Shown one piece after another: positions 36,981 through 64,000 of a stretch of DNA of 64,000 nt. The first letter of the stretch is position 1. Every line of letters starts with the position of its first letter. Both the position numbers and the translations under genes were made by a program. The notes below the pieces were generated by a model, which searched no databases, had not been told where the DNA came from, and was given only the letters and a program-made list of their open reading frames with translations. This DNA comes from Viridothelium virens (taxonomy: Eukaryota; Ascomycota; Dothideomycetes; Trypetheliales; Trypetheliaceae), in contig ML991776.1 of assembly GCA_010094025.1 (NCBI GenBank), positions 124,001-188,000 of the forward strand, written 5' to 3'.

Positions 36981-38198
36981 TTAAGTTTTCTCGATGTTTC
37001 CAATATCTGTGAGAATATACTTCTTGCGGTCCAATCCCAACCGATCGATCATTTTTGCGATTCTGTTTTGGAATTCGGCGATTGCTCCCGGAGCGAATCT
37101 TGATTGAAGGCTGTGCCAAGTCCTTTGCTGGCTCTCAGTAGCCCGGGGAAACATCTCTTTTTCATAAGCCTGCACGGCTCGATCCAGATCATGGGGGCTT
37201 TTCACAATCTCTTGAGCCAGGACCATGGCGTCTGTCAAGGCGAGATTAACTCCTTCGCCAGCGAACGGGGTCATCAGGTGGGCCGCATCTCCGATCACTG
37301 TGAGACCCTTTCGTGACGGCCATTTCAATCCCACAGGTAGCATATGCAGTGGTCTTGGCGTCATATCCCCATCGGCCTTTCGGATCAAGTCTTTCTGTCC
37401 CTCTGACCATCCCTCAAACTTCTCCAACAGCCATTCCTTCACCTTCTGCGAGTCCGCCCAGTCAACACCAGCGTCACGAATGAAGTGCTCCGGCGCCGTG
37501 AACCAGGCGTACGCCTGGATGCTCCGATCATCCTGACGCTGGCACAACAGCGCGTTCCCACGCTCCTCGCCAAACATGAAGTTGCTCCCTTCCCCGATCC
37601 TCTCCGAGATATCCGGATACCGCTCATCCACTTCCCGCCACCACAACTCCACTCCACTGACGCCGGCATAGAACGGCGCCAAACTCGACAACCGCGACCG
37701 CACCTTCGACCACGCCCCCTCCGCCCCAACCACCAAATCGAACCCCCCCTCCACACTCCCATCCTCAAACCGCAACACCACATCCTTCCCCTCCTTCTCC
37801 TCCTCCCCCACACTCCTCACCCGCCTCCCCCAGCGCACTCTCTCCTCGGGCACCGCATCCAACAAGATCTGCCTCAGCCTCGGCCTCCCGATCTCCGGGC
37901 GCCCATGCGCAACACCCTGCACGCGCACGTGCTCGCGCCCGCCCGCGTCCGTCAGCACGAAGTTCTCGCCGCTGAACCGCGCCTGCCGCTCCCACGCCTC
38001 GTAGACCCCGGCGTCGCGCAGCGCTTGCTGGCCCGTTGTCGGGTGCAGGTCGAGGCTGCCGCCTTGCGTGCGTGTCGCAGCCGACGCGTCGCTCTCGTAG
38101 AGCGTGTAGGGGATGGAGTGGTGGGTGAGGATGGCGGCGAGGCAGAGGCCCGCGGGGCCGGCGCCGAGGATGGCGATTTTAGGGGTGGTGGGGGACAT
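36981..38198 (-). CDS. FAD-dependent monooxygenase, group A (TetX-like), 405 aa
   Basis: Single-component flavoprotein aromatic hydroxylase family. One exon from MSPTTPKIAILGAGPAG (GxGxxG Rossmann motif), then the LRQILLDA region, the DG-type FDLVVGAEGAWSKVR motif, and GDAAHLMTPFAGEGVNLALTDA, the GD motif that binds the FAD ribityl chain. Length is normal for TetX-like enzymes. Substrate unknown. Expression could be shared with the methyltransferase gene on the other side of the 891-bp intergenic region. The 5' two-thirds are far more GC-rich than the 3' third and show a sharp C/G strand-skew change (see findings), so codon use is unlike its neighbours; this may be local mutation bias rather than transfer, since unrelated genes here show the same pattern. 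Confidence 0.93.
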   Translation of the reverse strand: MSPTTPKIAILGAGPAGLCLAAILTHHSIPYTLYESDASAATRTQGGSLDLHPTTGQQALRDAGVYEAWERQARFSGENFVLTDAGGREHVRVQGVAHGRPEIGRPRLRQILLDAVPEERVRWGRRVRSVGEEEKEGKDVVLRFEDGSVEGGFDLVVGAEGAWSKVRSRLSSLAPFYAGVSGVELWWREVDERYPDISERIGEGSNFMFGEERGNALLCQRQDDRSIQAYAWFTAPEHFIRDAGVDWADSQKVKEWLLEKFEGWSEGQKDLIRKADGDMTPRPLHMLPVGLKWPSRKGLTVIGDAAHLMTPFAGEGVNLALTDAMVLAQEIVKSPHDLDRAVQAYEKEMFPRATESQQRTWHSLQSRFAPGAIAEFQNRIAKMIDRLGLDRKKYILTDIGNIEKT

Positions 38199-38220
38199 GA
38201 TTTTAGTTTGGGAAGATAGG
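37600..38220. other. GC-rich island with C-to-G skew flip (near 38040)
   Basis: Plus-strand counts by eye: 37741-37800 has 35 C and 1 G; 38101-38160 has 10 C and 34 G. The change happens within about 100 bp inside one reading frame. Confidence 0.85.
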
Positions 38221-39089
38221 AGGGGGATATGGGTTTGATTTTAGTTCTTTGCTGTTTTTTTCGTCGGTGGTGGTGATGACTGTTGATGTGGCTAGGATGG
38301 GAGTTGTTTGCTTCGAACTGGACGCCGATAGAGTAATGATTTGATTGAAAGGATGGAGATTGAATGATTGAGAAAGGACTTTCCATGATTAAACAGAGGC
38401 TTTATATACTGCAAGAAATGATAGTGTACGTTGGAATAGTAACTATTTCCAGCACATTTGTGGTTGGGTTGAGGCTCTGATGCCAAATCTTCGGCCGATG
38501 CTTCGGCCGGAGGTCGCTGTACAAGCGAGACCCTTACTCTACAACACCTTATCTGAATCTCTTCATTGTGGGACTTCCATGGAATCATGAGTAAGAGCAG
38601 TGCATTAGCTGCTCAGCCAGTCAATCCCTCCATAAATCCAACGAATTGATCTGTTTCTCTGTTTCTCTGTTTCTCTATCTCCAAGACAATGGCTGCGCGT
38701 CAAGCCGGCGCATCCGTCGTACGTAAGCTCGTCGACGCTTTCTAAGATGGGAAGTTTCCAATACTGCGACTGCCACTTCTTCTCACTCGCAATTATGCTT
38801 TTACCGACAACTCCGCTGCTCATGATGTGCCGCAGCAAGATATTTACGCACAGCGACGATCGAAGAGCCTACTTCCGCTTTTCCACCAGTGAGTAGTGGG
38901 TAGCGGCAGGCTGTACTATTAGCCTTTCTTGTAGCAATGTACCCAACTGCGGAGGCAGACGAGCCTTCCGAATAGGTCTGGTGGCGGACATCCGTAATCT
39001 CTTCTTGCTTCTGTTGAACTTTACGTTTTGTGTCTTCTGTCCAATCGAGCAATTTTCTTAAATCAATCATTTCATTGTACAGCTATAAC
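38199..39089. promoter_or_regulatory. Divergent promoter region, monooxygenase / methyltransferase
   Basis: Separates the two divergent genes. Two CGGCCG palindromes at 38492-38497 and 38504-38509, 12 bp apart, are the type of site bound by Zn2Cys6 regulators (CGG/CCG). A CTGTTTCT repeat lies at 38651-38677. No gene seen. Confidence 0.4.
38651..38677. repeat. CTGTTTCT tandem repeat, about 3.4 copies
   Basis: Three near-perfect 8-bp units plus a partial, in the divergent promoter region. Confidence 0.9.
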
Positions 39090-40774
39090 ATGAGCTCCAC
39101 CGGAGATCAGGATACCACCCAACCCGCCGATGCAGCAAGGCTTCTAGGAGAAGATGCACACACATCTCCAGCTTTGTCAACCGCCGCCACTGTAGAAAGA
39201 AGTGATATCGAATCGCTTCACCGTGATGAGGCTATCGGCGATCTAGCTCGACCGTGAGACCTTTCTCGACTGGCCATTTCCTTCTGCGTCCATCTACTGA
39301 CTCGAACAAAGCCAGCCTACAGTTATAATGGAGTCGGAATGTGTGGAGAATGGAGACGGGCACGGCCGAACCTATGATACGTTCAGACGAGGCAGTTAGT
39401 GTTCTTAATGAAGATACTTTGCGAGTTTTAGGACTGATCGGTTTCTACCCTACAGGAAACACGCTACCAAACGGTACTGTTAGTGTTCACAAGGAAGACC
39501 AGCATTACTCGAGCTAAAGAAACTCGTTTAATAGGAGGAGCAGGGCCGGCTAAGTATGTCTTCCGCTCCAAGTCTCGGTATACAACATTCCTATCTCAAA
39601 TGTCAAAGCATGATGGTTCCTATACCCATCCAATGCCTCTATGTGCCGTGCATGTGTTGCTTCGAGGCAACGAAGAATGTTACCTTGATACCCTCCGAAC
39701 GCGCTTGATACTTTTCATTGTTTGGGAGATACCGAGTCTTTCATTTGTTTTTTATAGAGCTGTGCTGAATATCGCCAAGATCACCAACATGATATACTCA
39801 TGCGCCTCATGGACGGCAATCTCTATCTAGCACCACTAGATCCGATCAATATACACAATGTTCTGGACATTGGAACAGGTGTGAAACTCTCTTTATATGC
39901 AAGCAACATGAAAATATGCTTACGAGATCCATAGGCACTGGTTCATGGGCGATAGACTTTGGTATCTTTCTCCGCTGTATTTTAATTCGGAGAATGGAAG
40001 ACTGACCAAATTTGCACAGCCCAACGGTATCCTTCGGCAAAGGTCATTGGAAGCGATCTAACCCCTTCCACGCCACTGCTGTGGGTGAACTTGGTACATC
40101 CCTTCAATTTGAGGCTGATATGCCATTATCCAGTGTCCCCCCTAATTGCAGCTTCGAGATTCATGACGCGGAAGAGGATGACTGGTCTTACTCCACTCCC
40201 TTCGACTATGTCCATGGTCGCTTGATTATCACTTGCTTTGCTGATCCTCTCGAAATTATCTACAAGTGTTTTGACAACCTCAAGCCAGGAGGCTACCTCG
40301 AAATACATGATCTGTCGCCGCTCGAATTTGAAGGCGATGTCTCAAGGTCCAAGCCTATCAGGAGATGGATGGATCTTTGCATTGAAGCTTCGACCCAGAA
40401 TGGACGTCCCTGGAACAATGCAGTCCACTTTGCTCACTGGATGCACGAGGTGGGATTCGAGGACGTTGAAGAGAGGCTCTTCAAACTACCCTCAAACCCG
40501 TACGAAGGCCTGTCAGCACATCAACAAGAGCTAGGTCGAGAGAGCATGCAAAATCTTAGTTCTGCTGTTGAGGCTCTTTCCTTGCGAAATTTCACAAGAA
40601 CACTGGGCTGGACGCCCGCAGGTGTTCGGGAATTGGCGGCGGCAGTAAGGAGGGACTTGAGTGAGGGCGTGAAGGCCTACTGCACTGCGTAAGTGTGCAC
40701 TTAGGCCTGTCTTCTCAAAGGTGACGAGCTGATCTTGACATAGACGGGCTGTGTGGGGACGGAAGCCGTTGTAA
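39090..40774 (+). CDS. SAM-dependent methyltransferase, TAM/LaeA-like, 354 aa
   Basis: Small-molecule or regulatory methyltransferase of the group that includes LaeA. Eight exons: 39090-39253, 39312-39394, 39466-39488, 39758-39878, 39935-39961, 40020-40080, 40134-40688 and 40744-40774. Joined they give motif I NVLDIGTGTGSWAIDFA, then RYPSAKVIGSDLTP, VPPNCSFEIHDAEEDW, the YVHGRL strand, LKPGGYLEIHD and the usual end VWGRKPL. The early region RTYDTFRRG...TLPN matches the family RYHAYKEGKY.LPN block. The third exon is 23 nt and its downstream intron is 269 nt; this join is the weakest, although phase 0 and the GTTAGT donor agree. True LaeA orthology cannot be decided, as many paralogues exist per genome. 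Confidence 0.85.
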
Positions 40775-41021
40775 GACAATGGTTCTGTTCGAGCATTTCC
40801 AACGTAGAGCAACGGTTCTTTTCAGGCGCGTTATCCGCTTGCGATTGGCGCACACAGTCTTTGGTCAGAAGATGCATGGCTATTCATAACTCTGCACTCC
40901 CACGCTCGGAATTCTTACACAAGCAGCCTTGCTGTCCATAACCATAATAAACACTCTCAATGCTCGCCAAAAAGACAACTCGGTGTGAACGCCGCTGTAA
41001 ATGCAAGCCATAAGGACTCCC

Positions 41022-44000
41022 TCAAAGTGCCTGAACCTTGCGATAACTCGGCGGACGAATTGTTCGTCGTAAAAGCTTCACTACATACGGCGGCACGAGA
41101 CTGACCGCACTAATCGCCAAAACCCGCCACAAAAACGCCACGCTAATGATATACTTCAGGTCAAAGTAACCCCCGAGCAGCGGCACGCTGCCAAAGTAGA
41201 TAGCTGCCGTCCCAAGTATCGAGAAAATCATGACAGGATGCCAGGTCGTGACTTCGGCAGCGACCATGATGAGCTCGTTGAGAATAAGCACAGTATACGA
41301 CACGGCAACCATGCGAGGGAAATTATCGAGGCCGACGAGCAGCTGGGCGAGCCCCTGGATGATGCAACCCTGGTAGATGGAAACAGCGACCCAGATGAAG
41401 AAGGTGCGGTAGCTAAGGGAGCGATTGAGCGCCAGCTCCTTATAAAGCTCGGGATAGAGAGCTGCGAGGTCCGGGTCAACGTCGCGGTCGAGGACGAGGG
41501 AGAAGACCGGCGCCATGGTATATATGGTGGCGTAGCCGACGAGGAGCCAGTCCTATATCACGCGGATTAGTGAGTTTTCCGAAAGGGGTTTGTGAATAAG
41601 AGCGCCTACCCTGTACAATGCGATCGGCTCGAATTCGCTCGCAATGCTGTAGAGGGTCTGGCACACGCTGATGATGAGACCGCGATGGATGACGAACTGC
41701 GCAAGCTTGGCGCTCCGCTTGTAGCTGTTCCGTCCATGCCAGACGAGGAGCTTGGTGAGGTAGCAGAACTGTTCGATGGAGAAGTCCGCCGCTAGACTGG
41801 CCTGCCGGCCTTCTTTGCCTACGATTCCGACGCCTACGTCTGCTGCTTGGATCATGGAGACGTCGTTACCACCATCACCAATGCAGCATGTGCGCTTCTG
41901 CGTGTAGGCGCGAATGAGTTTTGCGACGTCCGCTTTCTGGGTCGGAGAGCATCGGCAAGCAACCACGGCTGGGAGTCTGACGGCGGTCGCGATGAAAGCT
42001 TCGCGGTGGCAGGTTAGCATAAGTGCAAGTGATTCACCGTCGATAAGAAGGCAAGCATCGGTCTTGTTTCGGAGCAAATCCAGCGAATCCAGGGCGGCTT
42101 CCTTTCGTTTCACTTAGACAGTGTCAGCAAAGAATGCATCAAACAGAGGGCGGCACCTACTCTTTGCAATCGTGTGAATATATTGACCACGAGAGACCAG
42201 CTTAGCACTTACAGCCACGCAACGGGCTGTTTCAACTTTGTCACCTGTAAGCATCCATATCTTCACACCTGCATTGCGGAGTAATTCCAGCGATGGCTTG
42301 ACGTCTCGTTGCAATTTGTCCTCAACACCAGTGACTCCCAGAAGCTCAAGGCCGCGCTCCAGATGCTCACCAACAACTGCTGCCATGGACGCATCACGAG
42401 CATGTAATGACAGGGAGGCCTGCGCATACTGCTGTGAAAACTCTTGATATTGCTCATGTGATAACCTCTTCCGACCGACGACGAGTGTTCGTAGCCCTTC
42501 GCGCGCCATGTTTGCCGTCTCTTCGTCGAGCCAATCATTTGCGGCGACAATGGATGTCATAACAGTATCTGCGCCTTTCTGATAGAACCAGATCTCACCT
42601 GACTCATCCAGAGGCGAGTTTAGGTCTTGGGTGAACTGCACGATAATGCCCATTCGCTTACTGTCAGACGTAAATGGGAAAATGTTCAGAATCTTCACAC
42701 GGACGACAACTCGTTCCGACTCCACAGATTGCAGCACAATGAATTTGCGATCGCGGTGAAGGAGGCGGAGACCAACACTTTCCGTCCAACGCACAATGGC
42801 AATTTCATCGGGTGATGAGGCCTGGTACGTTGTGATCCTTTCTCCATGCTCTGCCTCTACAGTCGGGGTGACGTTATGACACAAAGCTAGAGCCAGCACT
42901 ACATCTCGAACGCGAGCGCCGATCTCCCGTCGTGTGCGAGTACCGGAGTTAGAAGTAGATGTGAAGACTGATGAGGGAGTAAATAAGGTGGTTTGGCCCA
43001 TATCTGAAGAGACGATTTGCCCAAACGCCTGCCGGATATAAGAGGCGACTTCGTCCATCGCATCGTTAGCGTAGGATACGGTCCCGACGTGGATCTTCTT
43101 CAGCTCCATTTCTGTGCAAAGTCAGCGTCAATCTGGATTTAAAGTCGATAGTTGCATACCATTTTGAGTAAGAGTACCCGTCTTATCACTAAGAAGGTAC
43201 TCCACCCTACCAAGGTCTTCTGGGATAGTGCTGGTTCTCACCACTGTGCCAGGAATTCCTTTGTCATTCTGGATATACCAGGCGTACACACTCTTTCCCA
43301 AATCGAGGTTCACGCGAAGGCTGATGGGAACAATGGTCGAGAAAAGGATCAAAAAGCGCATGACGGATACATACCACTTTCGACCATCTTTCTCGTCAAA
43401 ACCCTCAGCGGCTACGAGGATGAACGAGAGAGCTAGCGTGAGGAAGCAAAGAATCTTAGTGAGCGAGTTGATTTCGTACTCTAAAAGTCCGGTCTTTGAT
43501 CTCGATGGCGATGTTGACAAGGCCTGCCGCGTTTGCGATCCGGTATAAACGACAACAGCATACACGGTTGAGCTCGAAGCAAGAACCGTGTTCGCCCACG
43601 CAGTGTTGTCGATGGTCAGAGCTGCTTTTCTTTGTTGGTCCCCAACTGAGTCTTGGTTATTTCCAGTATTCCCGATAGATGTTTTGTCGATATGTGGATC
43701 ATAGCCTGCTCTAGTCTGAGGCAAAAGCTCCACGGTACCCGTGAAATCGTTGACTTTCTTATCTGGTTTTCCAGCCATGACCTGAAGTCTCGTATATTCG
43801 CAAATATCGAGAGTTTGAGTAAGCGGGGAAGGCAATCGAAGTTTCCAATCGGTTTCACCATCCAACTGGTCAGTTCGAATGAAAGCCTCAGCACCAGCAG
43901 TGTCTGGGATCGAAGCATTATTCGAGCCTTGGTTTGCTTGCGATTCAGGCCCAGAGCCTACATATTCGCCAGAAGAACTTGATTGATTTTCGTCCTCGTC

Positions 44001-45611: not shown

Positions 45612-48600
45612 ATGGCCTTGACGGAGGAGGGGCCTGATTTCAATTCCGCATGGCATCCCGCGATGAGACCCAACTCCTTGCAAGACGACTATCCTAATAT
45701 GAACGATCAAAAGCTTGCACAGGGTCCTCCGACCTCGTCGAAGCACACAGGAGATGAGGTGGACTCTAAAGACGATATGAGTACGATTGGAGAGATTAGC
45801 GGCCACCCACTTAGCCATCACGACGCGGATTCGGACGATGATTTTTTCCAACGATACGGTACCTCGGATTCAACCGGCGGATTATTACCCGTGCAAGCAA
45901 AATCGTCGCATACACGTGACACAACTCTCACTGAGCAGGAATCGCTAGCGAACGGGATCGAGTCTCTGCATTTGTCTCAGTCTGTCATGCATCCTCAGGA
46001 CCCCATGTCTGAAGTCGATGCTGTCCCTGCAGACACCGTCGGTACTCCGGAAAACTCGGCTCGAGAATTACCTGGAAATGATGATGGATCGGACAAAGAG
46101 GTTGGGCCTGCAGAGAATTATGAGCATCAAAGCAAATCGGCTCTTTTAGAAGAGGCTGTTGATGAGAGTGCGGCCGCTCCATTGCTAGCAGATACCGACG
46201 GACCGATCATTAGCAACGAACCCGCGGCGGCAACAGAAGTCGCTACACAGGAAGAGCCTAGCACAGCGATACCACCACCAGAGATTCACGTCGCTGCGGA
46301 ATCCTCGGCGACACTGGAACCTGAGAAATCTAGTGATACGAATATCGATTGGGGCACAACAGACGATTTTGCTCTCGAGTCGGAACACCAAATTACGGAT
46401 TCCACTGTACCTTGGGGCGAAGAGAACGAGAGCTCTTTTGGGTCGAAGGAAAATCAAGATTCAGATCGTGCGGTGGACACGTTGAATTCCATAACCCAAC
46501 TCAGCCGTGATGAGGGTGCCACAGAAGAACAAAACAAGGATAATCCCGAACCAGAAAAAGAGGAAGACCTGGATGCAATATGGAAGGCTGCTTTGGGTGA
46601 CGACGATTTCCTCGGTGATTCTGAAGATGTCGGAGACGCTTCTTTTTTTCCTGATGACGGGGAAGGCTTCCTGGATGACGCTGGGCTCGGAGAATCTGAA
46701 TCTCAGCGAGCAGATTATAATGAAAATGTCACTCACGCTTCGCAGACATCTACGCAGCGCTATGCTCCAACAAGTGCCGGTCAATCTGGTGTGCTCCAGA
46801 ATCAGGACCAAAGACAGATTCAGGGTCAAGCCAATGCGCATGGCTTGCAGACGCAGTCTTTTAATGCCGCAGCTACGATCTTCAAGCAGCAACAAAGCAG
46901 ACCCTCACCTCCTGCATCTTCTCAAAGTTTCGTCGACAAGTCCAAGGGTGGCTATTCCTCACCTTACGATCTACCCATGGATGTTTCTCGACCAAGGAAA
47001 CGAGCCAGCGCATACCCTCTTGCTCCTGGCCCAACTTCAGGCTCCATGCAGCGTCCAATAGCGCCGCCAAGAAGTAGCAGCATGCAAGTAACATCTCCGA
47101 CAGGACAGCCGACAAGCGTACCACCCCAATCCATCGCAAGTCTATCACCTCCTCCATCTCGTCATTCGAACGAACCCCCGCCGCCAAAACATCCAGTAGC
47201 TGGTGCATCAGCCCAACAGCCTTCGCTAGCTTCGAAACCCAGCAATAGTGACTTTTTTGCTGATCTTCCTGTTGGCGCTCGTCCTCGCGGCACGGGTCAA
47301 GGTGGCAGGTTCACACCCAATCCATCTTCGTTCACTCCACCTCCTTCGGAGCAATACTCTGTCGAAAAAGGCTTTTCTCCACTAAAGCCACAAGGCCAAA
47401 ACGTACGACCAAGTGCCGAGTTTAATAGTCAGCTGCAGGCACCTCCAAAACTTGATCTATTTCCTGGGTCAGGACCCACGGCCGACCACCCGGCACAGGC
47501 CGCAGCACTCCCGGCAAATAACAGATATTCCCCTGCAACACAAGCTCGACCCTCGCCGAGCGCTCAATATGCAGCGCCACCTACGAGCACTGCGGTAACT
47601 AGCTATGCTCCCAACCCAGCCTCACAGCCATCTCCTGCGCCAAGTCAGAACAGGTATGCCTCTGCGCCAAAGGGAGCACCGCCATCTTCGTACACCAAGC
47701 CATATGCACCAAGAACCTCGAGTCCGCTAGCGAGTCATCAAACCTCACCGCGGAGTGCAACAACGAATGCACGATCTTCCTCCAACCCTCCTGGCCCTTT
47801 GCCTACTGATAGTACTGTTGAGACACAACCTCGCCAACATAGTATTTCCATGTCCGTAAGTAGTGATGATTTTGCGTCAAACCCTCCGCCTCCTTTATCG
47901 ACAAGTCAATCCGCTTTCGGTCAACGAGCTGGCTCCTTGCAGCAGAATTTCAATGGTGCTGTGCCAGTTGCTGGTCTTGGCCTCTCTACACACGCATTTC
48001 CCGCCAAGGCACAGAATAGCTACGCGCCTCAAGTTAACTCGCAAGATGGTCTTGAAAGTTCCAATTTGAGCAGTCCTGAATGGTCTCGCCAGTCGTCTGG
48101 TCTGGCAATGAAAGGTCCAAAGGTGGATCCTATTTCAGTCCATAAAGCAGCTTTTGCTCACAGGCCTGGCTCGCCCACTGAGTCTCAGAGCCAGGTCATT
48201 AATGCCAACCTGGGCCGCCGGCGAGGTGCTTCTATCGACCTTGGCTTTGTGGCCCCTCCTGATGAGACATCACAAGATCCATTGAAAAGGTGGCAAGGCT
48301 ATCCTGTCTTTCACTGGGGTATAGCAGGCCAGATTGTGACGAGTTTCCCAAAGCAGATCCCCCGATATGGCCCTGGTCACGGAATCCCGATGATGAAAAG
48401 CGGACCCGGTGAAATCTGCGTGCAGAGCAGCAAGACACTCCTGCCATTGCCTGAGGGCATTTCTAAGTTCCCCGGGCCCTTGAAATCGAAAGGGAAAAAG
48501 AAGGAGGTCATCTCATGGCTCAGCCACAAGATCGATGCTCTACAGCAAGAAAATAACTCTTCAATTTCTGGAATGACCAAAGGCTCGGACGCGCAGACAA

Positions 48601-51248: not shown

Positions 51249-51300
51249 GGTGGGGTGCGTTCTCTTTGTGGTGTGCTCCGTTGAGGGAGGATAGATGGAG
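50500..51300. other. GC-rich island with C-to-G skew flip (near 51000)
   Basis: Plus strand: 50761-50820 has 32 C and 12 G; 51181-51240 has 2 C and 29 G. Lies in the SEC16 3' end. Confidence 0.8.
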
Positions 51301-51592
51301 TGCGGGCGTTTTACTGGTGAGGGAGAGAGCCGAAATTCGCACGTTTCCATCCTGTTGTATTGGTAACCCTTGATCTTGTATATTACTACTACCTTTAGAC
51401 CTTTGTGCAATCGAAAGTGACGACCTCGGGCGGTACAATTTTGGCGTTGAACGTACGCTTGGTAATATTTCACAAGATCACAAACTCGAAAAACGTTGCT
51501 TTATTCTATGGGTATATCTATCCAGGGTCATGCTCTGTCAAGTATTAATAACTTCCAGGCAATTAATATTACAGTCCTCCATATGTACACTC
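51249..51592. other. Convergent 3' interval, SEC16 / ABC transporter
   Basis: Two 3' ends face each other across 344 bp. AT-rich in the right half; no gene seen. Confidence 0.6.
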
Positions 51593-54500
51593 CTACTGCC
51601 GTCTGAACACTTTCGTGACTCTCTTGAGACCCCTCGCCTGGGACACTGACTTCTCTTCTCTGTGCTGGTTTTCCTCCTCAACATTATGTTTTCCCACAAT
51701 GTTCAGGAACACCTGATCAAGTGTCGTTTGGCTGACCGAGTAGTACTCAAAACCAAGCTCTTGCTTATGCGCTTCAAGCAGCGCAAACAAAGCAGCAATC
51801 CCGGCCCTCTGTGTAAATGCAGAAGTAGATGATTCGCTTCCATCTTCGATCTTGTCGTCTGCGTCGAGCGCCTTCGAGCGACTTTCCAGATTCTGCATCG
51901 AAGCGTTTGGAACCATAAAGCGCAATTGCCCATGAAACATCCGATCCTCAGTCACCGCACGTGGAATGTTCTCCTGCACCCAACTCCTCACACGCTGCAT
52001 CTCCTCGTCACTCGTATGTGGCGCGGCGCGGTGCACAAGATGCACATAATACGCATCCCCATACTTCTTCCTCAAGAAATCGCTCGTTCCCAGCGCTAAC
52101 ATCCTCTTCGCCATGATCCCCGCCCGATCCGCCAACGCATCCGCCTCCTCCATCGAATGCGTCGTGATGACCAATGCCCGCCCGGCCGTGACGCTACTCA
52201 GCGTCTGCCACATAACGCGCTTCGACGCGGCATCCATGCCCGAGCTCGGCTCATCAAGCAGCAACACCGACGGATTTCCCATGAGGGCAATACCCAAGCT
52301 AAGCTTGCGCTTATTGCCACCCGACAGCTGGCCCGCAAGACGGTGCGCGAAAGGCGCCAACCCGACCGCGTTCACGATCTCCGCAACATTGTGGCCCACG
52401 TCCGCGACGCCGCGCGCCATGGCGTAGAAGCGCAGGTGCTCGACGACCGTCATCTGGTCGATGGCGTCGAACTGCGGGCAGACGCCGAGGTGGTTGCGGG
52501 CAGCCGCGCGGTGCTGGATGATGGAGGTGTTTTCGACGAAGATGTCGCCGTGGGGGCCGGAGGGACGGAGGTCGCCGCGGACGAGGCTGATGGTGGTGGA
52601 TTTGCCGGCGCCGTTGGGGCCGAGGAGGGCGAAGACTTCGCCACGCTTGACGCCGAAGGTGACGTCTTGGACGGCGGTGGTGCGGCCGAAGGTTTTGGAG
52701 ACGTGGAGGACGCGGAGGCCGTCGTTGGAGGTCTTGACGCGCGTGAGCTCGTCGAGAATCTCGGGTTCGTGGGATTCGGTGTCTTCTTCGACGTCCTCGT
52801 TGCGGTGCTTCAGGAGGAAGCTGGGCTTGTAACCGCTGTCGTACCAGATGAGGAAGGTGAAGAGAGCCATGGCCTGGAGGAGGAGATACAGGATCGGGCC
52901 TCCAAAGACTTTGATGCCGCCTGCGTAGGACGCAATCGTGTCTCCTCCATCACAGAGGAGTGAAAATTCATTTAATGTTAAGAGGAGGGCGCGAAGCAGA
53001 TTACCAGAGGGAGTGATGAGCCCGAGCGTAAAGTGTCCTGTCGTGAGATCTGCATCGATGCGTCCAGCAGGGCTATACGTTATGATGCTGAGATACCTGA
53101 CGAACTTTGTTAGCAAATCAAGATTACCACCTAAAGGGTCGAGACTACTCACATAATAAAGTAGATCAGGAAGAGAATGGCCTGACCTCCAGCCGCAAAT
53201 GCGAACGCTGCTAGCTGCGATGTAGTGAATAATGAGATGACGTAAGAGAGAAGGATAGAGGTGAGTCCGTAGAGGAAGAAGACGACAAAGAGGTATCCAG
53301 GGAAGTACCAGATATTGTTAACACCGACCCAGATAACCGTGACGAGAACGCTAATCAATAATACAAATAGAAAGTCGAATGCAAGATAAGCTGACCATAA
53401 GGGACCAGCCTGAACACCATTGCTGAAATGCAATGCTCTGATTTTCCTGAGTCGTTCAACGGTCGGGTACAAAGCGAAAAAGCCAGGATATGCAGACATC
53501 GCTAATCCAAAGTACAAGACTAGCTGCAATGTCTTTCCGGCGCTTGGAGCAAAAGGGACGGCAAATGATTGGAAATTCGTTGCAATGGGAACCTGAGACG
53601 ACACAGTGTCGAGCAAATTCTGGGTAATAATAGCGAAAGAAATGTCGAAATTCCCAATATATGAGAATACTGGAGTGTCGGATGGATTATCACCCAAGAA
53701 GAACCCACCAGGAGTGACGTTATGGAAATTCTGCGCAATGAAGTTGTTGAACTCGCCCACGCTTTCCACTGCATGGAAAATACTGGTATTCATGCCCGAG
53801 AGACGCGCCAAAGCTTCTATTGATACGCGCGAAGACGGTCCCACGGGCACGTCAGGCTGTAAGACGTTAATGGCAAGCGAGCTTAGATCAGGGTTCGAAG
53901 ACTGATCGCCAGGATTGCACGAAAGGGGCGAGAATCCTTTCAGGAAGAGAGTTGTGAGCCCAGCTGCGATGATGGGAATCAAGACTAAGGCAAAGTACGG
54001 AAGGTAATTTCGTCGAAGGATTGTCACACGTTTTCGGAAAAGGATCCAGGCTTGACGCAGGAGGCTAGTACCTTTGCCTGTGACAAGCCGAGGCCCTACG
54101 TACTCGCCGTCCTTATCTTCCGATGTACCTTCAGATGGTGAATTTGGAGGTTTGTCGTCGGCTTTTGGCTGTACAGATTCATGAACAGCATTGGCTTGAG
54201 CCGTTGCTGCATCTTCCATGACCTCTTCTGCCAATCTCAAAAAGACATCTTCGATCGTAGGGCCACTGACCTGGTATTCGCGATGTCCGGCCTGCTCTAA
54301 TCCGGTTATGAAGTTCGCGGCCTTAGCAGAATCTTGTATATTGAAGACCGTCTGGTCGTAGAGTACCCTTTGGGGAATATTCTCACTTCCTTCCGGCAGC
54401 GCCAGCTTTTGGCCACGATTGTAGATGTGGACTCGATATCCCCCACCAAATCTGTGTTTGAGTTCTACCGCTGATCCCTCCGCTTTCAACTTGCCTTTTG

Positions 54501-56546
54501 AGAGGATCGCGATGTGGTCAGACAGAACATCTGCTTCGTCCAGAAAATGCGTAGTCATAAGCAGAGTCCGATGTCCACGCTCAGCCAACAGGATATCCCA
54601 GATCTTTCGACGTGACAATGGGTCTAATCCAGAAGACACCTCATCGACACAACAAACACGACTACCTCCTGTGAACATCATAGCGAGCTGCAACTTTCGT
54701 TTTTGACCGCCAGACAGAGTCTTTGCATGCGCATTAATCTTCAGGTCTAGGTCACAAGCACTCACTAAGTCGCGAACCGTTTCTTTCGATTCAACTCCCT
54801 TTCCTTGAGATTTGAGCCGTGTGAATATCATACAATGTTCAAACACTGTCAGATTGTCCCACATTACGTTCTTTTGCGGACAGAGACCGAGACCACCGGT
54901 GCCATCCAGGTCGATTGTCCCGGAAGTGGGTTTGCTAAGTCCGGCTATACAGTCCAAAGTGGTACTTTTTCCAGAACCATTTGCCCCCAAGAGGACCATA
55001 ATCTGTCCTTTTAAAGCTGTCAGACTAAAATCATCGACAGCTATCACTGCGTCCTTTCTTTTGCGGCCCAGCCTTGATGACACATTCCTGTTCCACCAAC
55101 TTGGCAGGTAGTGCTTGGAAAGCGAGCCAAGTTCAATGGTTTTCTCAGAGCTGGAGGCTTTTGAGACGTGTCGTGCTTTGGAAGAGGTACCGTAAAGGCT
55201 TCGCTCGATATACGCACCGAGGATTGGGAAGACTACTATTTGCACGATCAAGAAGATAAGAAAGACGTAGCCAGGAACTTGCCAAGGATTTTCCGGGGCA
55301 CCCTTTGCAAAGTTGCTCGCCAGCAGTTGTCTTTCCCACCTAGCCATATAGATGATGACGAAGGTGTAGTTCATGGACGGAAAAAGAAGCGAAAGGATTG
55401 CCACCGCCCCTGAACTTTGAGGTGCAACAACTTGCGCAATGATAGCAAGGATGATAGATACAAGCGTGACTGTGATCCCTGACAGTTGAGCCTTGCGGAA
55501 CAGACTGCCCACCAGAATGGACCAACTGGACAGGGCCAAACCAGCCAAGAAGTGCACGATAAACACGAGTCCAAAAGAAGTGGCGGGAAACACCAGACCA
55601 TTGACTATAGCGGCTGATAGGATCCATCCAGGAAAGTAAAGAATGTCGAAAGCAACATGGTACGCCATTAGGCGAGCAGCTTGGGTATGCCATTTGACGG
55701 GGCTCGGACTCATAGCTTCAATGAGCTGTGACATTCCCAATTCTCGCTCAGAAGCCATGAGCCCGGTGAGTTGGTAAGTAACACCGACAATTCCAAGGAA
55801 GAACGCTACGGCCAGAATATTAATCACACTGCCCATATACAGCTGTTCAATGTTGTTCGCGCGCTCCTGAGAGGTCTCCGACGTAAACGGGTATTCGTCG
55901 ACTTGCGGCAAACTGGAATTGTCAACTGAGGCGATCGTCGCATCGATGGCATGCTGAAACGGCAGTACGTAGATTTCGGCATCGTTGTCATTCCTGTTGA
56001 CAAATATCTTGGCTCCAAGAGCTCCATCTGCCCTTATTGTATAATTCCAGATGCCACCTGCACCCTCCGTTGGGGATGATACGAAGCTTGCCGCAGCGAA
56101 ACAGTCAGAGGCGCCACGAAGGGAGCTCCGGCACACCGTGAGAAGTTCCACATCCGAGCCCACAACCTGCACATTCTTGCCCGCACCCTTTACAGTATTT
56201 GAGACCTGATCGATGACATTCTGTATTTGACCTCCCGTGTGACCATTATTGACGAACGCGACTGTGTTTCGAGAGCTTTCTCCAGCTGCAAGGGCAGCAG
56301 GTAGACTTCGCAAGGAAGAAGCGGATCCAATTCCGTAATCCGAAGGAGGCACGAAGAAGTTTTTAGCATAGGATATGAAGAACATCTAGAACCGAGTTAG
56401 AGAAGTTCAGATTGGTTGATAATGTATGCTCTTACAAAAACAACCGGCAACACAAACGCGCGAAGCGGTGTCGAGAACCAATGGCGAACCAGAACAGTTA
56501 GTAGGTTCTTGTATGTGAGCGTCCATGTCTGCTGAAGAAAGGCCAT
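51593..56546 (-). CDS. ABC transporter, full-length ABCA (ABC1) type, 1615 aa
   Basis: Membrane transporter of the lipid-exporting ABCA family. Three exons: 56546-56436, 56385-53153 and 53096-51593. The first short exon (37 codons, MAFLQQTWTLTYKNLL) gives the cytoplasmic lead and start of TM1, usual for the family, and joins in phase 0. Order: TM1, large luminal loop with the INNxxHT-like VNNGHTGG segment, six-helix half, NBD1 (Walker A LLGANGSGKSTT about residue 504, LSGGQKRKLQ, CCVDEVSSGLDP), second TM half with its own luminal loop, then NBD2 (LLGPNGAGKSTT about 1273, LSGGNKRKLS, LLLDEPSSGMD). Both ATP sites look intact. The second join (FIM-YLSII) is phase 2 with acceptor GTCAG. Substrate unknown; vacuole, endosome or plasma membrane are all possible. 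Confidence 0.93.
52000..52780. other. GC-rich island with C-to-G skew flip (near 52430)
   Basis: Plus strand: 52081-52140 has 28 C and 10 G; 52561-52620 has 13 C and 30 G. Lies in the second nucleotide-binding domain of the ABC gene. Confidence 0.8.
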
Positions 56547-59500
56547 TATGGCCTGAAGCCGTTATGAAGCTTCAATTCAGGCAGTGCGTTGGATAGCGAT
56601 AGAAAAGAATAATGTACGAATGATTACTGCATGGCGAGAACGTTCAGTAGTTAACAAGGAGAAATGACAATTACGAATGAATACTGTTTTTCGCCAAGAA
56701 AGAAATACAGCCAAACCTGCGGTGTGTCCATATCAGAAGAAGAAAAGTCAAGGAGCTCAGCCTCTTGCTTTGCGTGTTGAAAGGACGTGTTTCGCCTCCT
56801 GAGGCTTTACTCTACGTCCGTACGGCTATCGATGACGGGTACAACGGCAGCTACGATCCCGAGTCACGAAACTGCTGGGGTTTCGACACACCCCACTTTG
56901 ACTTGCATCCCACTCATATTCTGTAAGAGTTTCGAAGTGGTTAGGATTGGAAAGATGACCATTCTAGCTGTGCTTTAAGAGAACTTGGTGTTTTGTTGAT
57001 CGTACGGAGAATTTTCCACGTTTTTCGGAGGCGCATCCTTGACATTGTCCTGGGACACAATGCAGGTCGGAAACGTCCAAAGGAGTTTATTGGTCTTCGC
57101 CACCCAAGAGGTTCCCCAGAAATACGGTTACCAGATCCAGGAACCTAATCGACCCGAGTAATTAGTGAGTCCTTTGCCGATGGCTTTGAGGAGGCTCTCG
57201 AATTTTGCTTGGTAGCGCAATGACCTTGGAGAATCTTTGTTACTTCGCGTTCTCCTGGCCGAGAAAAACCATACAGAGTGTTTCTAACCGCTTTGAGGCC
57301 GTGCTCGCATCAGGAGAGCATTCACGATTTGCAGGTTGTTGAGCTCTGAGCTGTACGGAGCAGGCTTGACACACATAGATCTTAATCCTTCTCAGCTCTC
57401 TTGAGGTCTTTCCTTTTCTCCAGGCAATGTTTATTTTTAGCAAGTGGCCAAACAATCTATGTCGCATCAATTTAGAGTATATTCCATCGCTGGCGAGGAG
57501 AAGAAGAAAAAGAAAAAAAAAAAAAAAAAAAAAAAAGAGAGAGAAAAAACAAGCAAATGGAGTATTTTGGAGCAATGCGACCTCAACAACACCACATGCT
57601 GTCACTCCTGCTATCATCTTCGTAGAGCAGCTCAGACTTTTTTTCGGCCATGCTCAATGTCTGATTCGTCCACAGAAACAGCGATGCACGGGAGAAGGAT
57701 CCTCTACATTCAGATGCGAACGAGATCAATGATCTGTAGCTAAGAATGAACTGTCATTTTTAAGATGATAGCGTGATATGGGCTTTCCTCAATCTATGTT
57801 CTCTTCTGTACTGCCAATCGGCCTTGATCGCATCAATTCCGCTGTGAGAACATTGAGCGATGTGCGCTCTCATTACCCTAACGTTCAAAAATGCCGGCTC
57901 TGCGCACTACTCTACGTAAGATCACACAGCAGAGTGGCCCCTGGCCGCGAATTCATCGTCGACAAATCAGATCTCATCCCAAAAATCGAAATGGTGGCAA
58001 CTCTAGTCATGCGAGGCGCTCGACCATTGAAGGTTAATTAAGTTTCAGTGTGGTACATCCGGAGACTGAGCATCAATCAAGCCCCGCTGCACGGTACGTT
58101 GAATGCCATATACAGTGGGCCTTCAGGATTCATGAAGATTTTGCAACCGACGTGGAGTGTAGTTCGGGCAAATGGAGAACTCATCAAAATAGATTCGCGC
58201 GATATTGAGGCAAAGTAGCGACTACAATGTCGGTCAGTAAAGAAGCTGTAGGGCAGTGTAAATAGAGGTAGCAAGAGTCGTTTAATCAGTCTGTTTGTTT
58301 TGGCACCATTCAAGGTACGAAGTAGGTGATCGACAGTTGAGGATGAATTATCATGCACTGAACCTGTCGTCGTTAAATTTCGTCATCCAGGGACTCCCGA
58401 AACTACGCAGCAAGTCGCAACTCATGATGCAAGTCTTGAAAGCATGTCTGATGTCGCTGGTCCCCACTTCAATTGCGAAGCGCATGGAAAGGCGTTTTCT
58501 GCACAGTCACGTCGACCTCCTCTTTCAGGCAATAACGGCCACTCCCCTGTCAGTGGATCCTATATTATATTGTATGCAGACAAGGTGCCTCTCGAGTGCA
58601 GCAAACCGCACGGCGCCTCCCAACATGCGTCGTATGTCTTCATGCCCCGTCAGAGTGTACTTTACTCCGTACCGACGGCATCTGCATTATGCCCACCAAG
58701 TAGCAGAATCATGATAGTCGCAAAATTGATGATAGAAGAATGGCAGACAAGATAAGCGATTACGGATCTGGAGCGCGTCGACAACAGGAACAGGTAGATT
58801 ATTGCTTTTCTCGGACGCAGCTAATGAGAAAGCGGACTAGAAGATCCGAGCTCTTGGCGATGTTGGTTATGAGGGGAAGGACACCATCACTCTGATCCCC
58901 CAGCAAACAAAACGGCTCGGGTCGCTCAAAGCCTCGTGGCCACTGTTGAAGCACGCGGTGATGCCATCACGAACGGTCCAATCTTCGGCCAAGTTTGAGT
59001 TGCCGTGCAGATTCCCTGCATCGACTACCATTTACCAGCATGGGCTCTATTAGGCGAGGATCAGCCTGGCGGATTGTGCCGCCCAGGTCATTGATGTTGA
59101 TTTTGCTCAACCATACCGTGTCTCCTGTTGTTGTTTTTTTCGTAAGCTGAGTGGGCGTTCATCTCATCAGACTCGTTCCAAACCTGTCATCACTCTAGTT
59201 CCGTAAAATTGAAGCACCGTGCAAGAAATTGGTCGGTCGAGACCGGAGCATAATGCTTAGGGTAGGACCCCCGGTGTTGGATGTTGGTCGTCAAGACCCG
59301 TCAAGACCGAGGGACCTCCAGGAGCTGCAGCTTCCTGCAAAGAAACGTCTTTTCTTTTTCTCATTCTCTTACAGCCTACGGCGTGTCACCCTAGATCGCC
59401 TGCGTGCCATGAGGAAAACAGGGGACCAATCGCCCCCAGAAATGCCGATCAAACAGGCCCAGCTTTCCAAGCTCCTGCCCTGGCTACCCTCCATGACCAT

Positions 59501-59898
59501 CGACCAACATGTTCCCGCGCAAGATTCGGTGAATACCAACATCGACTATGTACCACGAAAAGCCCCATTGCAATGGAGCCTTACGCTTAGACGGCACAGA
59601 GGGCCCAGCACCCGGATTCCAGTTACACCTCGGTTCCCATGGCGTGCGTAAGATCACCTTATCGTTTGTCTTTTCTTGACCATACGGGACCTGACGGCCG
59701 GGAGATGATGCTTAATTCATTGGCGCGGCTTGCGAGCATGTTAAATGTAACCGTACCGGCAGAAGTACCTTTCACTGTCTCTCATCCCAGTGCGAAAGCA
59801 TTTCTCGTCGCTGTGCAATTCAACCCTCCCCACAGTGCTTTCCAATGGGTCCAGCGACTAAACGGTGACGGAGAATCTGTATTGCTGTTTTCCTCGAG
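56547..59898. other. Gene-poor stretch, about 3.35 kb
   Basis: No full gene. 57778-58041 (plus) is an 87-codon frame with a Cys-x2-Cys near the middle (CRLCALLY), reminiscent of the start of HET-domain proteins, but without the rest of the domain; treated as unproven. 59229-59651 is open but low in protein character. Contains a poly-A run. Confidence 0.4.
57513..57536 (+). repeat. Poly-A tract (about 24 nt) in a purine-rich run
   Basis: The uninterrupted A run lies in a longer AG-only stretch (about 57495-57548). No retroelement sequence was recognised just upstream, so a retro-insertion tail is not claimed. Confidence 0.9.
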
Positions 59899-61317: not shown

Positions 61318-61364
61318 TGTTTTCATTACAAGCATACAAGTCATCTCAATGATACCCCCGTCTC

Positions 61365-61742
61365 TCAGAAGCATCGGCCTGTGATCTGCCACTGGCCAGG
61401 TAGACAGCACTAATAGATATGCATTGGGGGCAAAAGGCAAAGGGATGGCGTATATAGGATAGACAACAAGGAGACTCACGTCGACGATGACTAGTACTAC
61501 GAAGTTCGTGAAAGTGATCTTACCGATGAGGCCTTGTCCATCTGAGATTCGAGGGTCGCCATCTCCCACTGCTTCTGACACAATTTCCTCAATGTTCTTG
61601 TTTCTCAATAAGTGCTGCATCAAAAAATGTCGATGTCAACAAAAGTGCCGGCATTATTTACCTCTAAACGTTTCAAGAGTTTCTCACGCTCGCGCAGCTG
61701 ATCCCACTTGGCAACTAATATGAGGTCAGTATCGATGCGCAT
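61365..61742 (-). CDS. Possible small gene, 86 aa, facing the rhodopsin-domain gene
   Basis: Three exons can be drawn: 61742-61662, 61614-61480 and 61409-61365. Each join is phase 0 with GTAAAT/GTGAGT donors and GATGCAG/CTATTAG acceptors. The product starts with a charged helix (KWDQLREREKLLKRLEHLL), continues EEIVSEAVGDGDPRI, then a hydrophobic segment ITFTNFVVLVIVD, and ends GQWQITGRCF. I do not recognise it. Support is the agreement of phases and splice sites plus coherent amphipathic sequence; lack of homology evidence keeps confidence low. It may be the 3' end of a larger or decayed gene. Its stop is 47 bp from the rhodopsin-domain gene's stop. Confidence 0.42.
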
Positions 61743-62560
61743 CTTAGAGCAATGCTTCCCCAAGCCTAATTAAAATCGCTTGTTCTCTAGCCCGGTGGTT
61801 TCATTCAACTTCCACTTTTTCAGAGATTTAAATTCTAAACTCGAGTAACATATACTAGTAAACCCCCGCGCCGCTGGTTCTTAATCTAAATTAGAAATTG
61901 CTGCAATTATTCCAGCTCAACATTTCACTAAATCACTCCATGAGTAGGCTTGCGCTGTGCAGAGGTATTGGATACTCTATATACGTTTGACATCTATCTG
62001 TGCCATCTACCATTTTTTGTTTAATGCGCGCCATACGATAAACTATCCCTTGCGCTGCTGCAGCGGGCTGCCGCGCACGGACCACTTTTTTGATAGGAGG
62101 GCAGCACGTGACTTATAGTCCGTGCGCGGCAGCCCAGCAGCGCAAGGGATAGGAATGATTGAGAGCCCCACCTCTTGCCACACCTGAGATACTTCCATAC
62201 CCGGATATGTAGAATCAAACCTATGCCACCCAATTTTGAGGTCGCCGACTTTGACTCATAATTAGTACTGAACGGGCAGACTTTGACTTTAATTTGAGAC
62301 TCGCGAAATTCAAACAGTTCTGCGTGCTTTGGACTTATTGAACGCCACTTGAGCTCCATCAAAACAAATGACATCACACCCGCTAACCAGCATGCATTAC
62401 ACACATAATTCCGATCTGCCACAACTCTTCATGTTGAAAGCTTCCACATTGTCTTTCCTACGACGAATCCTCCCTCCGTGCAGAGACAGTTGACCCAGCC
62501 GTGCGCCCTCAACATTCCACTCAGCTTCCAAATCCTCTCTCAGGTCTTCCCATCCTAACA
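61743..62560. other. Intergenic with foldback element
   Basis: AT-rich left half (61790-62030), then the short inverted-repeat element, then the upstream region of the DAO-family gene. The minus-strand open frame crossing the element (62422-62021) is not accepted as a gene. Confidence 0.5.
62046..62149. mobile_element. 104-bp foldback/MITE-like element flanked by TA
   Basis: Left arm 62046-62081 and right arm 62119-62149 are reverse complements, identical except for a 5-base insertion (CAGCG) in the left arm. A 37-bp spacer separates them. The ends read TCCCTTGCGC...GCGCAAGGGA and are flanked on both sides by TA, the target duplication of Tc1/mariner-type DNA transposons. No transposase is present, so it would be non-autonomous. 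Alternative: a hairpin with a regulatory role about 410 bp upstream of the next gene. Confidence 0.65.
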
Positions 62561-64000
62561 ATGGCCTCTGAAAAAAAGAACATCGTAATAATAGGTAAGC
62601 CAGGCGTCCCATCTTCCTCAAAACTCCAGTCCCCCACACCAAACCAACCCCCCCCCAGATCCTAACCGTCTTCCTCTCTCCAGGTGGCGGCATCATCGGC
62701 ACCACAACCGCCTACTTCCTAACCCACCACCCCTCCTTCTCGCCCACCACCCACACCATCACCCTCCTCGAAGCAACGCGCATCGCAGGCGGCGCCTCGG
62801 GCAAAGCCGGCGGCCTCCTCGCCCTCTGGGCGTACCCCTCATCTATCGTGCCGCTGTCATTTCGGCTGCACGCGCAGCTCGCAGCGGAGCACGGCGGGGA
62901 GGAGCGGTGGGGGTATCGGCGGACGAATGTGGGGTCGTTTACTGCGAGGGGGAGGGCGGTGCCGCCACGGGGGAAGGTGTGGGGGAAGGAGGGGGAGATG
63001 GATGGGAAGGGCAATGGGGATAACGGAGGAGGAGGAGGAGGAGGAGCAGGAGGGGGAGGGGGAGGAGGAGAGAAGGGGAAGGAGGGGCTCAGTCTGGAGA
63101 AGTTGTCTGCGGAGCAGCAGGCGCGGCAGAAGGAGAGGAAGGGAAAGTTGAGGGCGGCGGGCGTCCCGGCGGATTTGGACTGGTTGGATGCGGGGAGTGC
63201 GGTGGGGTATGCGAGTATGGCGGGGGAAGGGGAGACGGCGCAGGTGCATCCGTATCAATTTACGACGAGTATGGCGGCGTTGGCGGAGGAGGCTGGGGTG
63301 AAGGTGGTCTTGGGGTCGGCGAAAAAGATTCAGTATAGTGGGGATGGGAAGGAGGTGAAGGGGGTGGTGTATCAGGAGAAGGAGTCTGGGAAGATGGTAG
63401 AGCTCCCTGCAACGGATGTGGTGATCGCAGCAGGACCGTGGACACGGGAAGTATATCCATCGGCGCCGATTGGGGCGATGCGTGCACATAGTGTGACGAT
63501 CCGGCCAACGAGACCGGTGTCTGCGTATGCGCTTTTCACAGAGATCGATCTGCCGAAGAACTTTGGAGGAAGGGGGAACGAGTCGCTGAAGTCAGTGCGA
63601 AAGGGCGGGAAGACGGTAACGCCTGAAATATATGCACGTCCTAAGAATGAAGTATACGCATGCGGCGAAGGAGATAACGAGGTTGCTTTCCCTTCATCTA
63701 CCGATCTCGTGCAGGTGGATGAAGGGAGATGTCAAGACATTGTTGATTATGTAGGAAGCATCAGCGACGAATTGCGGGACGGTGAGGTCACAGCCAGGCA
63801 AGCCTGCTATCTGCCAAATGTACAAATGGGCTCTGGTCCACTCATAGGAGAGACTGGCGTTAAAGGTCTTTTGATGGCAGCAGGACATACTTGTTGGGGA
63901 ATTCAGAACGGACCCGGAACGGGGAAGCTTATTAGCGAGTTTGTGTTTGATGGAATGGCTAAGAGTGCTAAGATCCATTCACTTGCCCCAGAAAGGGTAT
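62561..64000 (+). CDS. FAD-dependent oxidoreductase, DAO family, TDA3-like (C-terminus beyond window)
   Basis: Flavoprotein of the glycine-oxidase/D-amino-acid-oxidase (DAO) fold, closest in pattern to yeast Tda3, a protein tied to late endosomes and the cytosol. Exon 1 is 62561-62594 (MASEKKNIVIIG), joined by an 89-bp GT-AG intron to exon 2, 62684 to the edge, so the split codon rebuilds the GGGIIGTTTAYFL dinucleotide motif. Further motifs: ATRIAGGASGKAGG, the VHPYQFTTSMA segment, VVIAAGPWTREV and near the end AAGHTCWGIQNGPGTGK, the C-terminal FAD motif. Residues ~110-150 form a Gly-rich low-complexity insert (encoded at about 63000-63090) not expected in the family core. The first 600 bp are very GC-rich, with a C-to-G skew change near 62880. 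No stop before the window ends. Confidence 0.92.
62640..63400. other. GC-rich island with C-to-G skew flip (near 62880)
   Basis: Plus strand: 62701-62760 has 35 C and 2 G; 62941-63000 has 8 C and 36 G. The sharpest of the five islands. Confidence 0.88.

Follow-up and report, generated by a model that had tools for sequence, protein, structure and literature searches.

What lies in the stretch of Viridothelium virens DNA examined here, a window of 64,000 nucleotides? Five short GC-rich patches, which we call islands, are found in unrelated genes, each with a single switch from C-rich to G-rich sequence that includes the silent sites. Island 1 lies in a gene for a FAD-binding monooxygenase (36981-38198, minus strand; Pfam FAD_binding_3). 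Its C-rich left arm (37398-38060) has C at 32 of 39 fourfold-degenerate sites between -500 and -250 bp from 38040; its G-rich right arm (38060-38340) runs from the 5' end of the gene into the 5' flank and has G at 24 of 35 such sites between 0 and +250 bp, the flank itself (38199-38340) holding 50 G and 12 C. Counted in 100-bp bins, the monooxygenase has 60 C and 5 G in the bin that starts 300 bp left of the flip, and 23 C and 47 G in the one that starts at the flip. Island 2 belongs to a P4-ATPase gene (NEO1-like, minus strand; Pfam PhoLip_ATPase_C and PhoLip_ATPase_N), with a C-rich left arm in the last exon (41028-41232) and a G-rich right arm (41232-41868); split at 41232, the fourfold sites count C19 G5 on the left and C20 G57 on the right (threshold 0.7). 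It is the weakest of the islands, being visible mainly at silent sites.

Island 3 occupies the 3' part of a SEC16 gene (45612-51248, plus strand; Pfam TPR_Sec16 and Sec16), its C-rich left arm spanning 50462-50980 and its G-rich right arm (50980-51340) covering the end of the gene and the 3' flank, with G at 33 of 52 fourfold sites between 0 and +250 bp from 51000 and with 40 G and 13 C in the flank (51249-51340). Island 4 is in the 3' part of an ABCA-type transporter gene (51593-56385, minus strand; Pfam ABC_tran and ABC2_membrane_3), C-rich at 51866-52420 and G-rich at 52420-53009; its fourfold sites, split at 52406, count C53 G18 on the left and C12 G90 on the right (threshold 0.7). The C-rich left arm of island 5 (62515-62850) comprises the 5' flank, the first intron and the start of exon 2 of a plus-strand gene for a DAO-type FAD oxidoreductase (Pfam DAO). 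The intron was placed by eye at about 62595-62683, and 62596-62684 holds 43 C and 9 G; fourfold sites left of 62850 count C29 G4. The G-rich right arm (62850-63577), with fourfold counts of G97 C9 right of 62850 (threshold 0.65, to 63615), contains a GGA tandem array at 63025-63085. Comparison of the oxidoreductase with solved structures gave no relative at E <= 0.001, and searches of viral contigs with the C-terminal block of the ABC transporter, SEC16 and the P4-ATPase gave none either. Three bacterial contigs found in a genome-contig search with the other ABC block match around the ABC domain and are non-orthologous DNA.

The five islands had been singled out in an earlier note, and silent sites alone recover them: the top five C-to-G flips at fourfold sites across 16 modelled genes, at 62841 (33), 52481 (23), 41232 (21), 38079 (20) and 50903 (20), are the same five. 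The single sign of the flip on both gene strands (three minus-strand and two plus-strand host genes) was likewise borne out, as was the view that the flip marks a point. The pattern also continues beyond coding sequence, in an intron and in flanks on the 5' and 3' sides. Its stated width of 100-400 bp has to be corrected, each island spanning about +/-500-700 bp. Pooled within ±500 bp, fourfold sites number C 203, G 67, A 49 and T 34 in the left arms; on the right they number G 246, C 45, A 46 and T 17. A, T and the non-favoured strong base are all depleted. In the folded profile of the five islands, the target base makes up 56-76% of fourfold sites in the bins nearer than 500 bp, 43% and 41% between 500 and 700 bp, 31% at 700-800 bp and 23% at 800-900 bp; the excess of GC at these sites (GC4) decays in parallel, from 0.74-0.90 below 500 bp to 0.58 at 500-700 bp and to 0.49 and 0.46 at 700-900 bp. 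High CpG reaches beyond the centres, the bins at -500 and -600 standing at 1.33 and 1.24.

Mann-Whitney tests of the order of G and C at fourfold sites gave p-values, optimistic because neighbouring sites in the same island lack independence, of 1e-8 for the monooxygenase (FMO), 9e-4 for NEO1, 9e-8 for SEC16, 6e-13 for the ABC transporter and 4e-11 for the oxidoreductase. Permutation with 35 sites per side was significant in all five island genes (p 0.0002-0.0064), with combined p-values of 3e-10 for C-to-G and 0.26 for G-to-C. The test is scale-dependent. At 15 sites per side the combined C-to-G result was not significant (0.19). At 25, the island genes had p 0.0002-0.044, the oxidoreductase alone surviving correction for 16 genes, and among other genes g28 gave 0.023 for C-to-G and 0.049 for G-to-C, and g9 0.041 for G-to-C. 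At 45, G-to-C became significant too (combined 0.009; g9 0.0016, oxidoreductase 0.006, ABC transporter 0.015), the oxidoreductase and ABC signals presumably coming from the outer shoulders of their islands. The 99% point of the permutation maximum over the window is 22, and only two of the top five C-to-G flips pass it. So does the strongest change in the G-to-C direction (25, at 51599), which falls between the islands of SEC16 and the ABC transporter; two C-to-G islands that adjoin require such a change. In the raw sequence alone, the one-sidedness previously described is less marked, since G-to-C jumps of comparable raw size occur elsewhere (67, 64 and 64 against 99, 68 and 53).

Detection by GC content alone, in 300-bp windows with GC >= 0.62, yields six islands, five of which have a positive (C-to-G) skew change, one of just +0.07. 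The four long ones (37424-38293, 50491-51320, 52069-52910 and 62576-63377; 802-870 bp) are all positive and are four of the five islands above. With GC >= 0.60, eight of nine islands are positive, two at just +0.01, and with GC >= 0.58, seven of 11; the NEO1 region is negative at this last threshold because its GC peak lies off-centre from the flip. Across the whole window, the C-to-G skew gradient tends to rise with GC content (r 0.14-0.28, half-windows of 100-400 bp), a correlation that none of 2000 circular shifts matched at any of five scales and that persists with the islands masked (r 0.10, p 0.012). Positive flips occur in 57% of the 514 windows with GC4 >= 0.7, those of opposite sign presumably being island shoulders.

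Could the islands have arisen by selection on properties of codons or of the mRNA, or from the local amino-acid composition? In the four islands measured, each of the three codon positions has more GC than it has outside, positions 1 and 2 included, which speaks for this account, and the coding GGA array of island 5 is of low complexity. However, the largest gap is at position 3, the preference at silent sites changes from C to G inside one gene, and intron and flanks follow suit. Synonymous-codon shuffling (13 coding blocks, 1000 shuffles, the last two NEO1 exon blocks left out) rejects amino-acid content: of the four island genes in this test, three (the monooxygenase, the FAD oxidoreductase and, in its C-terminal block, the ABC transporter) had a C-to-G change that none of the 1000 shuffles matched. 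Lower significance was reached by SEC16 (p 0.032), g28 (0.006), the N-terminal ABC block (0.026) and NEO1a (0.042); for G-to-C, p was low in NEO1a (0.027) and in g33 (0.036), the latter owing mostly to amino-acid content (observed 64, null 53). Together with the fourfold sites, the shuffling upholds the earlier exclusion of protein content as the cause, and we regard selection or composition as quite improbable. Still further down we place foreign or mosaic DNA, acquired by horizontal transfer or as introgressed GC-rich tracts, which we consider very improbable: while the islands are sharp GC outliers on a fairly uniform background, reading frames continue through them in genes with recognisable domains, and a near-central skew flip in five of five cases would not be expected of foreign tracts.

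More serious is an explanation from transcription. The coding strands of fungal genes pass from a 5' C bias to a 3' G bias (McLean and Tirosh, 2011; PMC3315797, excerpt), a known polarity that yields C-to-G flips inside genes on either strand and that R-loops, or mutation or repair associated with the polymerase, could heighten in places. As excerpted, that study finds the polarity in almost all unicellular fungi, its data list including filamentous ascomycetes, and finds it at fourfold sites and reaching into the flanks, with AT skew flat along genes. Genes of our window free of islands share the pattern: skew rises from the first to the last fifth in 10 of 11 genes counted as non-island (mean -0.14 to +0.11), and in 10 of 10 once the exception, NEO1, is set aside as carrying an island; a weak C-to-G excess also remains in the 11 genes outside the five islands (combined p 0.019 at 35 sites). 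The assertion in the earlier note that transcription direction does not explain the flips was therefore too strong. However, the published polarity is a modest trend over gene length whose skew correlates negatively with GC content (PMC3315797, excerpt), whereas the islands have varying intragenic centres, skews of about 0.5 in the arms of the two strongest, and GC peaks of 62-65%, about 1 kb wide and declining on both sides, which gene polarity leaves unexplained. Nor is their placement that of a 5' bias: the C-rich part of the coding strand is at the 5' end of the gene in islands 1 and 5 only and lies 3' in islands 2, 3 and 4, with its start some 4.8 kb inside the gene in island 3 and some 3.4 kb in island 4, and in the gene of island 1 skew drops from +0.58 to +0.05 toward the 3' end. 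On balance we consider this account somewhat unlikely.

Of the two causes originally proposed, replication origins and centres of breakage with biased repair, the second appears to fit this sequence better. A fixed origin at each flip, with G-rich outgoing leading strands, would give a strand-symmetric point, and the GC skew at the islands does run from C to G, as at origins and in agreement with the classical leading-strand excess of G. Raw AT skew also passes from positive to negative across island 1, and at fourfold sites T tends to sit right of A in four of five islands, though the order is significant in none of the five (p 0.09-0.69; few A and T sites). Leading-strand bias usually brings T as well (PMC3315797 background, excerpt), yet pooled fourfold A exceeds T on both sides. 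What chiefly makes an origin less likely than a break centre is that the skew arms are over by 700-800 bp, with no kilobase extension along forks. Two of the islands are moreover about 1.4 kb apart, probably too close for independent efficient origins, and we know of no raised GC in the signature of replication origins, which we count against them; altogether, origins seem improbable.

What is observed, then, is an enrichment in GC at a point, over about +/-500 bp, with silent sites enriched in C on the left and in G on the right, whatever the strand of the gene. Such islands resemble the scar that a repeated DNA event, for example recombination, might leave. Our preferred reading, which we hold tentatively and at somewhat less than even confidence, is that each is the evolved footprint of a recurrent double-strand-break site at the flip point, probably one of meiotic recombination. 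A break resected 5'-to-3' would leave 3' single-stranded tails, the left one belonging to the plus strand and the right one to the minus strand. Each tail would pair with a homologous copy, and mismatch resolution might prefer that the tail gain C opposite a donor G. This rule alone, which is our own construction and of which we have seen no demonstration in the literature, would put C on the plus strand at the left and G at the right, raise GC and leave AT skew unchanged; repeated over generations, it would amount to a strand-asymmetric form of GC-biased gene conversion. In favour of such break sites are the folded fourfold profile, confined to roughly +/-500-700 bp, the GC rise at all codon positions and the signal in intron and flanks, the order tests and the 35-site permutation (five of five islands each), and the pooled excess of A over T in both arms (49 to 34 in the left, 46 to 17 in the right). 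Weakening them are the lack of combined significance at 15 sites per side, the significant G-to-C result at 45, the survival of a single gene after correction at 25, the 57% share of positive flips among windows of high GC4 and the spread of high CpG beyond the centres. The five centres, besides, have no motif in common beyond a marginal k-mer excess, with one 10-mer in three of five (null 0.07), three 9-mers in three (null 0.45) and six 7-mers in four (null 3.0). Repeats at the centres are chiefly degenerate pyrimidine/purine matches, a by-product of the skew.

Meiotic break hotspots in mouse are reported by Smagulova et al. (2011) to have a nucleotide skew whose polarity reverses at their centre, which we count in favour of break sites; this too would be a switch at a point across some hundreds of bases, although those hotspots are mammalian and mapped by experiment. 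Peaks of GC-biased gene conversion, as modelled in PMC3020949 (excerpt), resemble the islands in their rise of GC and GC3 near a point, decay with distance and strongest effect at silent sites; they differ in that the paper makes no mention of skew or strand asymmetry, whereas here C and G are segregated to left and right. Hotspots within coding sequence have a precedent in a filamentous ascomycete, 1435 of 2578 recombination hotspots of Z. tritici lying in exons (PMC5844332, excerpt), and this supports break sites at the islands. Against them stand the S. cerevisiae meiotic breaks, practically excluded from coding sequence (PMC3020949, excerpt), in which our centres lie, and the GC-biased gene conversion of two Zymoseptoria species, extremely weak or absent as judged from 10-kb intergenic windows (PMC5844332, excerpt, where skew goes unmentioned).

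It is a rather doubtful possibility that a filamentous fungus has fixed intragenic break or recombination sites with strand-biased conversion, in which the tail gains C, and that a C-left, G-right island locates such a site within about 100 bp. Even under the transcription reading, focal islands this strong would be a striking case of the fungal skew pattern. In either case, the islands would distort tests of codon usage, selection and horizontal transfer in their host genes. If they are break centres, base composition would provide a fossil recombination map for fungi whose meiosis is beyond study, and from the way C and G are segregated one could tell which strand repair corrects, which ordinary measures of GC bias leave hidden. 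If the strand-biased break reading is true, the sequence of a single genome could suffice to map long-lived recombination centres.

What can be discerned about the GC islands of this window, which is 64 kb long with 50% GC and, judging by its gene content and short introns, is presumably nuclear DNA of a filamentous ascomycete? An earlier note had claimed five points at which the plus strand turns from C-rich to G-rich, and the five largest C-to-G flips at fourfold-degenerate sites (20 coding blocks in 16 genes) are those of the same five islands. Island 1 (37398-38340) lies in a minus-strand monooxygenase gene (36981-38198; Pfam FAD_binding_3), island 2 (41028-41868) in a minus-strand gene with Pfam P4-ATPase domains, called NEO1 in that note, island 3 (50462-51340) in plus-strand SEC16 (Pfam Sec16), island 4 (51866-53009) in a minus-strand ABC transporter gene (Pfam ABC transporter and ABC-2 membrane domains), and island 5 (62515-63577) in a plus-strand oxidoreductase gene (Pfam DAO), for which TDA3 was the note's label. 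Among solved structures, the monooxygenase is closest to AbsH3 and to further flavin-dependent monooxygenases, the Tet(X) group among them; this implies no function for the fungal gene. The 16 genes tested include several mechanical models (g4, g9, g17, g18, g27, g28, g33 and WW), which are open frames without an above-cut-off Pfam match, or unscanned.

The compositional feature is real and rather strong. Pooled fourfold sites number C 203, G 67, A 49 and T 34 in the left arms and G 246, C 45, A 46 and T 17 in the right arms; base frequencies are near equal over all 4820 such sites (14 blocks, islands included). Of four island genes put through synonymous shuffling (1000 trials), three had flips that no trial matched. 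The oxidoreductase intron (C43, G9), the stretch flanking the monooxygenase gene on its 5' side (plus-strand G50, C12) and that flanking SEC16 on its 3' side (G40, C13) repeat the bias of their respective arms. Fourfold sites, shuffling and matching intron and flank bias thus rule out protein content as the cause, bearing out the note on this point. In its G-rich right arm, island 5 carries an in-frame GGA tandem array (63025-63085) encoding a glycine-rich stretch of the oxidoreductase.

Is the direction of the flips specific? When C/G labels at fourfold sites were shuffled within genes, with 35 sites per side, C-to-G p values were 0.0014 (monooxygenase), 0.0064 (NEO1), 0.0002 (SEC16), 0.0014 (ABC transporter) and 0.0002 (oxidoreductase), and the combined p over 16 genes was 3e-10, as against 0.26 for G-to-C; leaving out the island genes gave 0.019 and 0.53. 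The combined C-to-G p was 0.19 with 15 sites per side and 7e-12 with 45, where G-to-C reached 0.009 owing to g9 and two island genes. In raw sequence, some G-to-C jumps match every C-to-G jump in size except the top two; one, at 51329, falls in the gap between two neighbouring islands, immediately to the right of that in SEC16, and the strongest within-gene G-to-C flip in the shuffle test reflects mostly amino-acid content. A raw flip at 17654, in g17, gave fourfold p values of 0.99, 0.59, 0.08 and 0.023 at 15, 25, 35 and 45 sites per side.

The pattern is also present when islands are called blind to skew, from GC alone in 300-bp windows. At the strict threshold of at least 62%, all four long regions (802-870 bp) of six flip C-to-G, and the two shorter ones (32137-32458 and 35854-36224) show no clear flip; lower thresholds gave positive flips in 8 of 9 regions (two merely +0.01), then 7 of 11. 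At every one of five scales, GC content correlates with the skew gradient along the window more strongly than in any of 2000 circular shifts, with positive sign in both halves, and weakly once islands are masked (r 0.10, p 0.012). All five islands (37398-63577) fall within the right 42% of the window, its left part (1-37000) holding no comparably long GC island; islands 3 and 4 (50462-53009), about 1.4 kb apart, occupy the 3' parts of the convergent SEC16 and ABC transporter genes.

With the five islands folded about the flip, the target base (C left, G right) makes up 56, 63, 69, 76 and 64% of successive 100-bp bins and 43, 41, 31 and 23% of the next four, bins beyond 1100 bp being contaminated by the adjacent island of the SEC16/ABC pair. 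After folding, A and T are both depleted (80 and 66 of 707 fourfold sites). In each of the four islands for which it was measured, GC exceeds the outside value at all three codon positions. When the central 200 bp of four islands are summed, CpG observed/expected comes to 1.25-1.31 versus 0.91 for the window, but some outer bins have values as high. Outside the modelled genes lies an A-rich tract (57499-57548), an A-run of about 30 amid AAGAAAAAA-type repeats.

Part of the feature rests on gene polarity already known in fungi. McLean and Tirosh (PMC3315797), with many filamentous ascomycetes in their data list, report that coding strands in fungi are C-biased 5' and G-biased 3', fourfold sites included, and that AT skew is flat along genes. 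Being symmetric to the gene strand, this polarity alone would yield C-to-G flips within genes and the reverse in the intervals between genes, so that the note's dismissal of transcription direction was too strong. All ten island-free genes that were profiled share the polarity; NEO1 lacks it. What the polarity does not predict are the GC peaks of about 1 kb, or flips whose coding-strand C-rich arm begins kilobases into the gene. Among the matches listed, from open-access literature and few subscription papers, none was seen to describe focal GC islands that flip from C to G within fungal genes; in the gerbil papers among these matches, judging by passages of PMC7403616, 'GC skew' means GC enrichment.

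A recombination origin of the islands is plausible but unproven. The reading we favour, as possible rather than probable, is that they are the trace of recurrent double-strand-break repair: a break at the flip point would be resected to leave a 3' tail, which during conversion would tend to gain C opposite donor G, a strand rule that is itself presumed. An outward two-sided bias, with C on one strand, its mirror on the other, and losses of A, T and the remaining strong base, fits this expectation. The data establish the point, the extent, the bases and the independence from gene strand; strand-dependent repair is plausible, a support that does not extend to the base preference. Against break repair stand reports that GC-biased conversion is extremely weak or absent in Zymoseptoria, as measured in 10-kb intergenic windows (PMC5844332), and that in budding yeast coding DNA is practically free of meiotic breaks (PMC3020949). 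For GC variation in asexual Candida, mitotic-recombination-linked conversion or replication errors have been proposed (PMC3845650), which would be a further route, one for which meiosis is unnecessary.
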